A stretch of 26,891 nt of DNA, from IMG/VR virus record IMGVR_UViG_3300030116_007925, positions 1 to 26,891 of that record. One strand, 5' to 3'. The stretch comes from a virus. The first letter of the stretch is position 1. The number at the start of each line of letters is the position of its first letter. Positions 6,902 to 8,407 of this stretch are shown one piece after another. Made by a program: the position numbers and the translations under genes. The notes beneath the pieces are model-generated. The model saw only the letters and a program-made list of their open reading frames with translations. It was not told where the DNA came from and ran no database searches.

Positions 6902-7844
6902 CGAATATTTGTATGAAACACCCGTGCAAGCCATGCTGCGTGATCCCAAAGAAGTGGGCAAGATGAATTCCATCATGAAGACGCAGATCGATGCGTTAAC
7001 GCAAGAACTTGGCAAGTCGTGGAAGCAATGCTGCCGAGTGTTAGCAAATGAGATCGGCATTGATTATGCAACGCTCAAAAATTTTGTTGAGGGCAAAGTG
7101 CAAAAGCCTAGCGAAAAAACGCTGCAGAGCATGCAGACGTATCTGGATGAGTTTGATGCGTCTGTGATTCGTGGCGAGTCAACACCAGACAACGCAAAAG
7201 ACCGCAAGATATCAGAGTTGGAAGCGAAGATCCGGCAGTTGCAAGAAGAGATTGATTACAAAGACAAGAGCCGTGAAGAGTTACGGTTGAGTTATGTGAA
7301 AGTGCGCGAACAGCTCGACAGCGTGCAAGCCCAAGACCCTGAGTTTCACGAACAATATCAAGTTGTGCATCCAGAAAACAGTTACTGGATGACACACAGT
7401 GATATGTACATAGAGATCTATACCACTGGCACAGATTGGGAAGACTCCGCCGAGCGTAACCGTGTATGCACGATTCCGATACCGGACACCACCATGCTTT
7501 TACACCGGGGCCAAGTACCGCACATCCGTGGCGAAAAGGAGGACGGTAATTTCGATTGGATACCAGACCCCGACTACGTGAAGATCAGTGAAAATGATAA
7601 GGGTGAGGTTTGGGAGGCACCGGAGACGGTTTCATCGCAAGGTCACACGATACCTGCACGATCTGTGGTGGTTGAATCAAGGGAGCAGTTCGATGTTCGC
7701 CGCGACCAAGTCAGAGCGGAAAATTTTGCGTTGGTTACCGATGCTGCAAAAGCCATTGAAAAAATGTACCGTAAATGCGGAGGCATACCGGACACAGAGG
7801 TCTACGTCGGTTTGAGAGTAGACGTGACCAGCAACGTTTTTTAG
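6894..7844 (+). CDS. HTH and coiled-coil phage protein, putative regulator (316 aa)
   Basis: Starts at a GTG with AGGAGAAAAAA upstream. Residues about 25-90 resemble an XRE/HTH_3-type DNA-binding domain: SWKQCCRVLANEIGID, then YATLKNFVEGKVQKPSEKTL. Residues about 100-145 form a charged coiled coil (ISELEAKIRQLQEEIDYK). The C-terminal ~165 residues are an unrecognised domain with several beta-strand-like segments and conserved-looking aromatics (YQVVHPENSYWMTHSDMYIE). A DNA-binding head, oligomerising stalk and globular sensor or effector domain suit a transcription regulator. This is the largest gene of the plus-strand operon. No catalytic motif is seen. Confidence 0.7.
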   Translation: MSNEYLYETPVQAMLRDPKEVGKMNSIMKTQIDALTQELGKSWKQCCRVLANEIGIDYATLKNFVEGKVQKPSEKTLQSMQTYLDEFDASVIRGESTPDNAKDRKISELEAKIRQLQEEIDYKDKSREELRLSYVKVREQLDSVQAQDPEFHEQYQVVHPENSYWMTHSDMYIEIYTTGTDWEDSAERNRVCTIPIPDTTMLLHRGQVPHIRGEKEDGNFDWIPDPDYVKISENDKGEVWEAPETVSSQGHTIPARSVVVESREQFDVRRDQVRAENFALVTDAAKAIEKMYRKCGGIPDTEVYVGLRVDVTSNVF

Positions 7845-7894
7845 GTATGATCAGGGCAAACCAGTTTGGGATGCGGCCTATCACTCCGCTCCAA

Positions 7895-8063
7895 GCGCGC
7901 GCCGTCCGCGTGCCCAAAAGACGGCACTATTTTGGCTAGGGTCTCCAGCCCTGAAACGCGCGTTCCCGTCCGCGTGCCAGAAGGCGGGCCGAATCGGGCA
8001 AGAGGGCTAAACACACTCTCTCCTTGCGCGTCCCCGTCCGCGTGCCCACAGGCGGGGCTTTTT
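7895..8063 (+). ncRNA. Three-unit tandem RNA hairpin array with conserved loops
   Basis: Three units 64 and 68 bases apart. Stems: 7901-7906 with 7920-7925 (six pairs), 7965-7970 with 7983-7988 (six pairs, one G-U), and 8032-8038 with 8051-8057 (seven pairs, one G-U). The stem sequence varies while pairing is kept: the outermost aligned pair is G-C in unit 1 and C-G in the others, and an inner T-A becomes T-G. The 12-13 base loops all begin CGCGTGCC and end in A-rich sequence. Each unit is preceded by GCGCG, which could pair with the loop CGCGT to form a pseudoknot. The last unit runs into TTTTT and then the ribosome site of the next gene. The units fill the 227-base gap between two genes. 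Function is unknown: attenuator, protein sponge and leader structure are all possible. Confidence 0.65.
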
Positions 8064-8071
8064 GGAGAAGT

Positions 8072-8161
8072 ATGAAAGATCGAGAAGTAATCAAAGGCTT
8101 GTTGTTTGGCGTAGCCATCGCAGTAGGCATTTGGTTGCTCGCATGGATTCTAGGATCGTAG
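8072..8161 (+). CDS. 29-aa single-pass membrane peptide
   Basis: A very short gene. The ATG at 8072 follows TTGGAGAAGT, a clear ribosome site. After a charged start (MKDREVIKG) there is one strongly hydrophobic segment (LLFGVAIAVGIWLLAWIL) long enough to span a membrane, then GS and stop. It sits directly behind the hairpin array and ahead of the 77-aa gene. Small phage membrane peptides can act in lysis, superinfection exclusion or defence evasion; nothing here decides which. Confidence 0.6.
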   Translation: MKDREVIKGLLFGVAIAVGIWLLAWILGS

Positions 8162-8173
8162 AGGATAATCTAT

Positions 8174-8407
8174 ATGGCAGAAGTGACAGAAACTGAAGAA
8201 ACAACCCTTTCCCTTAATCTGTCCGCCGAGGAGGGGCTGTTTTTACTCAGACTTTTGAAAAGTTCCAAAGACGATCCACGGATTCACGGCTTGATTGGCA
8301 CCTGCTTCTGGTTTCATAGCCATAGCAAAAGCGAAGAGCAGTGCATCAAAGACACGTGGACCGCTGTCGAGCAAAAGCTGGAGGCACTCAAACTTGTCGG
8401 CTCGTGA
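8174..8407 (+). CDS. Small hypothetical protein, 77 aa
   Basis: Unrecognised. GAGG lies nine bases before the ATG. The product has a Glu/Thr-rich N-terminus, a hydrophobic helix (EEGLFLLRLLKSS) and a His-rich middle (CFWFHSHSKSEEQC), then a C-terminal helix ending VEQKLEALKLVGS. No transmembrane segment. It follows the 29-aa gene in the plus-strand operon. Confidence 0.65.
   Translation: MAEVTETEETTLSLNLSAEEGLFLLRLLKSSKDDPRIHGLIGTCFWFHSHSKSEEQCIKDTWTAVEQKLEALKLVGS

Follow-up and report, generated by a model that had tools for sequence, protein, structure and literature searches.

A conserved, pseudoknotted RNA element in tandem copies between phage genes

What is a short series of direct repeats doing in the gap between two phage genes? 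The DNA analysed here (the window) is the 26,891-nucleotide IMG/VR virus record IMGVR_UViG_3300030116_007925. A first-pass annotation, made from its letters and open reading frames, had described three RNA hairpins with a 64/68-base period between a helix-turn-helix (HTH) gene and a 29-aa membrane peptide gene, and had proposed that they are selected as RNA. We consider below how far the repeated unit extends, whether it is a folded RNA, where it occurs, and how it might act.

The repeated unit and its array in the window

Three tandem copies of an RNA element of ∼62 nt occupy positions 7865 to 8060 of the window (Table 1). The number of units and their period were confirmed by a 13-mer, CCGTCCGCGTGCC, which occurs exactly at 7902, 7966, and 8034 (spacings of 64 and 68 nt), each time inside the stem and loop first described; with up to two mismatches it occurs four times in the window, against 0.8 expected, the fourth occurrence being unrelated. 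The first description also holds for the stem, for its loop CGCGTGCC, and for GCGCG upstream of them. This stem and loop, however, are one half of the element: the true unit is about twice the size, starting at least 30 nt further 5′ (at 7865, 7930, and 7996), and includes two helices, P1 and P2, that had been overlooked. The pairing of GCGCG with CGCGT, put forward as one possible pseudoknot arm, is real but is more than that, a true helix (P3). A pseudoknot is indeed present in every unit, but its arms are the P3 loop and a strand 3′ of P1.

Helices P1, P2, and P3 of each unit meet in a three-way junction, and the P3 loop, L3 (UUCCCGUC), pairs over 6 to 7 bp with GGCGGGA, just 3′ of P1. The layout is P1, the P2 hairpin, P3 with its loop, P1′, GAA, and GGCGGGA, giving the strand order P1-P2-P2′-P3-L3-P3′-P1′-L3′. 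The arms of P3 vary jointly among contigs (GCGCG/CGCGT, GCACG/CGTGT, GCCCG/CGGGT, GCGGG/CCCGT, ACCCT/AGGGT, CAGCG/CGCTG, and CATCG/CGATG), and for P1 the four bases after P3′ complement a strand 5′ of another hairpin (GACC/GGTC, GGGC/GCCC, TGGC/GCCA, and GGCT/AGCC).

The core, L3 and its pseudoknot partner, is conserved and the stem sequences are free to vary; the units of one array differ from each other in most stem bases. Conservation of the core is partly due to ascertainment, because the family searches mostly required the L3/pseudoknot sequence; the covariation of P1 to P3 is unaffected. Pseudoknot strands that depart from the consensus also covary, as in unit 1 of the window (CGCCGTC/GACGGC, with compensatory changes from C-G to G-C in the outer pair and from U-G to U-A in the inner) and in locus L135 (CCCCAGC/GCTGGGA). 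Further covarying pairs of strands are CCCCAGTT/AACTGGA in L147, TTTCCGTC/GGCGGAA in L314, TGCTCGTC/GACGAGA in L090, and TTCCTGTC/GGCAGG in L290 and L308, where the next base is A in the form GGCAGGA.

A covariance model, whose source alignment contains the window units and whose E-values are rough, found no match in the whole window besides the three units. Plain folding of the whole array region gave an ordinary stability (z = 0.49); this is unremarkable, as expected, because the key helix is a pseudoknot. The 316-aa gene upstream, the HTH gene of the first-pass annotation, gave no match in a Pfam search, and in other phages members of its family (C2) are found either 5′ or 3′ of the array.

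Table 1. Features in and around the array; positions are those of the window
Feature	Position	Strand	Sequence	Remark
Upstream gene, 316 aa	6894..7844	+		Clusters with C2 family
Sigma-70-like promoter candidate	7824..7851	+	GTGACC-16-TATGAT	Just 5′ of unit 1; consensus match only
Unit 1	7865..7925	+		Covariance model 38.5 bits
Unit 1 P1	7865-7870 / 7913-7918	+	TTTGGG / CCCAAA	
Unit 1 P2	7873-7876 / 7886-7889	+	GCGG / CCGC	
Unit 1 P3	7895-7899 / 7907-7911	+	GCGCG / CGCGT	
Unit 1 L3 / pseudoknot strand	7900-7906 / 7920-7925	+	CGCCGTC / GACGGC	
Unit 2	7930..7988	+		Covariance model 48.9 bits
Unit 2 P1	7930-7936 / 7976-7982	+	TTTTGGC / GCCAGAA	
Unit 2 P2	7938-7941 / 7949-7952	+	AGGG / CCCT	
Unit 2 P3	7958-7962 / 7971-7975	+	GCGCG / CGCGT	
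Unit 2 L3 / pseudoknot strand	7963-7970 / 7983-7988	+	TTCCCGTC / GGCGGG	
Unit 3	7996..8057	+		Covariance model 64.7 bits
Unit 3 P1	7996-7999 / 8044-8047	+	GGGC / GCCC	
Unit 3 P2	8001-8006 / 8016-8021	+		
Unit 3 P3	8026-8030 / 8039-8043	+	GCGCG / CGCGT	
Unit 3 L3 / pseudoknot strand	8031-8038 / 8051-8057	+	TCCCCGTC / GGCGGGG	
Ribosome site of next gene	8064..8067	+	GGAG	6 nt 3′ of pseudoknot strand
29-aa membrane peptide gene	8072..8161	+		Directly 3′ of array
77-aa gene	8174..8407	+		C37 family; anchor for homologue search

Covariation and the folded strand

Selection on RNA structure, suggested earlier from the three window units, is borne out by an alignment of 48 distinct units from IMG/VR phage contigs, window units included, with 20 pairs (A1). 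Compensatory change was seen in 18 of the 20 pairs, and double-change cells numbered 123, compared with 35.5 ± 6.0 in shuffled alignments. Paired cells made up 91.4% of the total, against 78.3 ± 0.7% after shuffling and 33 to 58% when the partners were slid by 1 to 3, and none of 500 shuffles attained any of the five measures. Broken down by helix, 92% of cells were paired in P1, 77% in P2, and 95% in P3, every pair of P1 to P3 showing compensatory change; the pseudoknot had 96.4% of cells paired and double changes in five of its seven pairs. Related phages carry homologous arrays in which pairing is maintained.

Covariation also brings out the pseudoknot pairs de novo. A covariance model (R1) was made without the pseudoknot, and its 116 unique matches were aligned for corrected mutual information; the model pairs ranked top, and the first standard pairs outside the model were the pseudoknot columns, 87-126 and 89-124. 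A descriptor free of sequence, specifying P1, P2, P3, and the pseudoknot only, recovered all three window units and gave one match in 412 kb of control loci, both strands included, and two after shuffling. A chance origin of the window units is excluded, because descriptor matches are nearly absent in the control loci. We conclude, with near certainty, that the units belong to a real, conserved, pseudoknotted RNA family.

In the unit pairs, G-U cells numbered 124 and A-C cells 19, which identifies the folded molecule as coding-strand RNA rather than the opposite strand or single-stranded DNA. This bears on a role at the DNA level, as origin iterons, an operator, or recombination joints for cassette swaps, which direct repeats at one main site in each genome, close to genes of replication and recombination, would suit. 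Such a role might also account for the variable gene set 3′ of the array and for a gene, C13, that ends in a relic of the element and in L304 lies between two elements. The retention of G-U but not A-C, with an orientation that tracks the coding strand, nevertheless makes the conserved fold an RNA, and the exchange of modules may simply follow from short homology; we regard a DNA-level element as very unlikely.

Searches of known families were negative: Rfam release 15 gave no match over the whole window at the gathering score, and no relevant match was found for three arrays at E ≤ 10. A hit to the Rfam family EGFOA was noise (11.9 bits against a threshold of 37.7) and was gone on a repeat search. 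A tRNA-like element was rejected, ARAGORN being negative, as was a coding explanation, the ORFs across the array being kept on neither strand; a protein repeat is ruled out by the spacings of 61 to 69 nt and the compensatory stems. Read-through of a stop codon stimulated by the pseudoknot was considered because P1 abuts the stop codon, and was set aside since the units are not spaced by multiples of three. A mobile repeat or MITE was rejected on the finding of one main array per contig.

The first-pass annotation knew of no described family of this form, and we agree: judged by Rfam and the open-access literature, this is a previously undescribed structured RNA family, with unusually strong covariation support, in phages that are probably marine. 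Its covariance model can be used to annotate viral metagenomes, whichever function holds.

Distribution and position between genes

Scanning IMG/VR for the core pattern gave 43 contigs, mostly of the same family; further scans brought the total to 103 distinct units, and a complete scan with a fixed-gap pattern matched 69 IMG/VR contigs. The virus records in the family are metagenomic fragments. From the IMG/VR sample numbers and the nearest relatives of the DNA polymerase, which are Pelagibacter phages, we read these phages as marine. Long contigs, of up to 57 kb, carry a single array; the one exception is a weak second site in a contig of 57 kb. By a strict rule, 20 of 46 distinct arrays have one copy, 18 have two, and 8 have three, with the units spaced 61 to 69 nt apart; in L007 the covariance model gives four copies.

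The first-pass annotation had held that absence of homologous arrays from related phages would count against it. In close relatives the association is nearly complete: the element is on 24 of 24 contigs with close relatives (at least 60%) of the DUF669 gene, and an array lies upstream in 22 of 23 with close homologues (at least 67%) of the window's 77-aa C37 gene, the 23rd contig starting only 291 bases 5′ of that gene. The set anchored on C0 and C37, which served as a check on the ascertainment of the core, is not an independent sample, because many of its contigs overlap those found by pattern. Distant relatives of the anchor genes, at 14 and 8 loci, had no element, and no copy was found by covariance model or sequence-free descriptor in more remote phages that share these proteins (HTVC023P and HTVC027P; C0 homologues at 33 to 41%, C37 homologues at 43 to 48%). 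Searches by blastn of the consensus unit, the array, and the window against named phages gave nothing significant.

A prophage search found no match in 385 genomes from the class of Leisingera (G022) or in 369 from that of Halieaceae (G023). In the class of a Sphingobacteriales MAG (G021), two genomes gave matches, on phage-like contigs of 32 to 34 kb, which may be misbinned phage contigs. One element copy lies at 1501-1561 of L418 (contig C168, genome G879, of the same class), in a phage-like contig; its binning is a possible host clue or a case of misbinning. This copy has the usual layout, with a terminase-small-subunit-like gene on one side and an unknown gene on the other, and its P1 opens with the G of the TAG stop codon.

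In most cases the array takes up a single intercistronic gap, running from the stop codon upstream to just before the next Shine-Dalgarno sequence, and it would usually be part of a polycistronic message. Of 46 distinct arrays, 36 have an upstream ORF whose stop falls between −30 and +9 nt relative to P1, most commonly at 0, +1, or −6, so that it often abuts or overlaps the first P1 pair; a Shine-Dalgarno sequence and start codon follow within 60 nt in 34 of the 46, mostly 5 to 20 nt beyond the pseudoknot, and in most arrays 4 to 23 nt separate the element end from the Shine-Dalgarno sequence. The usual array end is ACTAATA, ACTTACTAAAC, or ACTTCAATGG, with the ribosome site next. Neighbours from recurring gene families are on the same strand as the array. 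The flanking genes are mostly of DNA metabolism (Pfam families AAA_24, DUF669, DUF3799, PDDEXK_14, and HTH_23, with helicase-like, Cas4-like, and other genes by reading, besides SNF2-like and terminase-small-subunit-like genes), their identity varies among phages, and none is constant on either side.

Possible modes of action

A position that is independent of gene identity, on the sense strand, and between stop codon and ribosome site fits an intercistronic mRNA element better than a single-gene metabolite riboswitch. We think it probable that the array acts in cis on the phage message, regardless of the flanking genes. It would form a mechanically stable barrier between cistrons, in its likeliest form a nuclease roadblock or processing boundary by which the mRNA of the genes before it and that of the genes after it would differ in stability, with tandem copies providing redundancy, as in flaviviruses. 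A nuclease or processing barrier specifically is a tentative proposal, made by analogy; another intercistronic form, a brake on translational coupling, also fits. The position between stop codon and ribosome site makes function directly testable with short transcripts.

The analogy is with the exonuclease-resistant RNAs (xrRNAs) of flaviviruses. In class 1a xrRNAs, P1, P2, and P3 form the junction, the L3 pseudoknot measures 2 to 7 bp, and copies are often tandem (PMC8571300), and an xrRNA blocks the bacterial 5′-3′ exonuclease RNase J1 in vitro (PMC5760640), so the roadblock principle would work in bacteria. The phage units share the strand order, with the P3 loop pseudoknotted to a strand just 3′ of P1, a pseudoknot length (6 to 7 bp) within the same range, and a frequently tandem arrangement in a noncoding stretch beside coding regions. 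In contrast, xrRNAs lie in 3′ untranslated regions, whereas the phage units lie between genes of DNA phages, and the L3/pseudoknot sequence is unrelated. In xrRNAs, the segment 5′ of P1 pairs into the junction to form PK1, the 5′ end passing through a ring; among the top covarying pairs of the phage units there is none between the 5′ flank and J2/3, the 5′ flank varying too little to be informative. The conserved J2/3 cytosine of xrRNAs is unmatched, the best J2/3 column being C in 69 of 116 rows. We claim a resemblance to xrRNAs, not membership, because covariation gives no sign of PK1 and nuclease resistance is a prediction. That DNA phages independently evolved xrRNA-like RNAs, set in tandem between genes, which block 5′-3′ (RNase J-type) or 3′-5′ decay and so set the message ratios of neighbours, is a doubtful idea. 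Nuclease blocking by the array, if real, would be without precedent among DNA viruses of bacteria, judging by the open-access literature, and would show convergence with flaviviruses.

The sequence of the core points partly in another direction. The conservation of L3 and its partner exceeds what a purely mechanical barrier would call for, a hint of a binding partner, although the searches selected for that sequence, and one short array per genome could equally be the mark of a single regulated gene pair. A translational regulator of the downstream gene, in which a ligand or protein would bind the L3/pseudoknot core and its occupancy would alter ribosome access, could explain a conserved core among freely varying stems and the placement of the element shortly before the Shine-Dalgarno sequence. 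P1/P3 and a competing L3-pseudoknot hairpin could then be the two states of a switch; two states are plausible because, of the 103 units folded to minimum energy without a pseudoknot constraint, 51 favour the L3-pseudoknot hairpin and 13 the nested junction. Against this, the downstream genes come from many unrelated families, no riboswitch in Rfam matches, and direct sequestration is absent because the Shine-Dalgarno sequence lies outside the element. We consider this possible, if somewhat unlikely; if the array did bind a ligand or protein, it would be a phage regulator or counter-defence RNA of a new kind.

A phage precedent is the gene 32 leader of T4, T2, and RB69, an mRNA pseudoknot bound by gp32 (PMC3014915), which resembles the arrays in lying shortly 5′ of a DNA-metabolism gene. 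That leader has one simple pseudoknot of two stacked stems and serves one gene, unlike the tandem junctions and unrelated downstream genes found here. An operator of the gene 32 type does not fit: where a DUF669 gene (ssDNA-binding-like by reading) is present, it is upstream of the element, not downstream, and the downstream genes vary.

The array might instead be cut from the message to act in trans, its tandem pseudoknots titrating a protein, like the protein sponge suggested by the first-pass annotation, for example as a decoy for a host RNA-binding toxin or nuclease. ToxI consists of tandem pseudoknot repeats, and a phage pseudo-ToxI exists (PMC5086642); the arrays are like ToxI and CptI in having tandem pseudoknot units (one to four, in one main array per genome) and in the existence of phage-borne versions (PMC5086642). 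They differ in that ToxI has simple H-type pseudoknot repeats of 34 to 36 nt, with a terminator and then a toxin gene after them, whereas the phage units are ∼62-nt three-way junctions that differ in most stem bases within an array. No ToxN-like match was found downstream of the arrays in the part of the clusters that was scanned, which gave HTH_23, DUF3799, or no Pfam family; others read as a helicase or a methyltransferase. In the window clade only, the promoter candidate 5′ of unit 1 (9 of 12 consensus matches; one found against 0.2 expected) could give a separate short transcript and, with the T run after unit 3, would allow an RNA of ∼200 nt, a faint hint of a trans role. Most arrays sit between stop codon and ribosome site with no evident promoter or terminator of their own, and we judge a trans-acting RNA unlikely.

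The same T run bears on termination. It follows the last copy in the window and in some other arrays, among them L014, L023, and L028, and the first-pass annotation had offered an attenuator on this ground. Most arrays, however, have no T run, the linkers between copies often have none either, and a scan of the window gave no terminator-like site at unit 3. Attenuation is not a general feature of the family, and a transcription terminator or attenuator is highly improbable.

Several minor features of the array surroundings may be recorded. A conserved block, TATG(AT/CT)C..GGGCAAACCAGTT(T/C)GGG, abuts unit 1 in the window clade (7846-7870 of the window, and L023, L034, L102, and L140); it could be a phage promoter or a piece of the unit 1 leader. 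Similar neighbourhoods in L031, L045, L135, L159, L044, and L326 have a spot just 3′ of the array where variable genes are inserted, among them a 388- to 412-aa C25 gene, a Dcm-like methyltransferase, and an HTH_23 gene. The 54-aa C13 gene ends in an in-frame relic of the 3′ half of the element (GGTGGTCGAAGGCGGGACT, read VVEGGT) at L008 (∼5670), L036 (∼5932), and L321 (∼1462), and in L304 the elements on its two sides are complete, as if gene and element had moved jointly. Finally, L307, L312, and L111 share a sequence beginning CTAATTTGGCCCATCGCAGAGCAAATCTAACGTGTTCTGCG after the array and before the next gene, which partly resembles another structured RNA.
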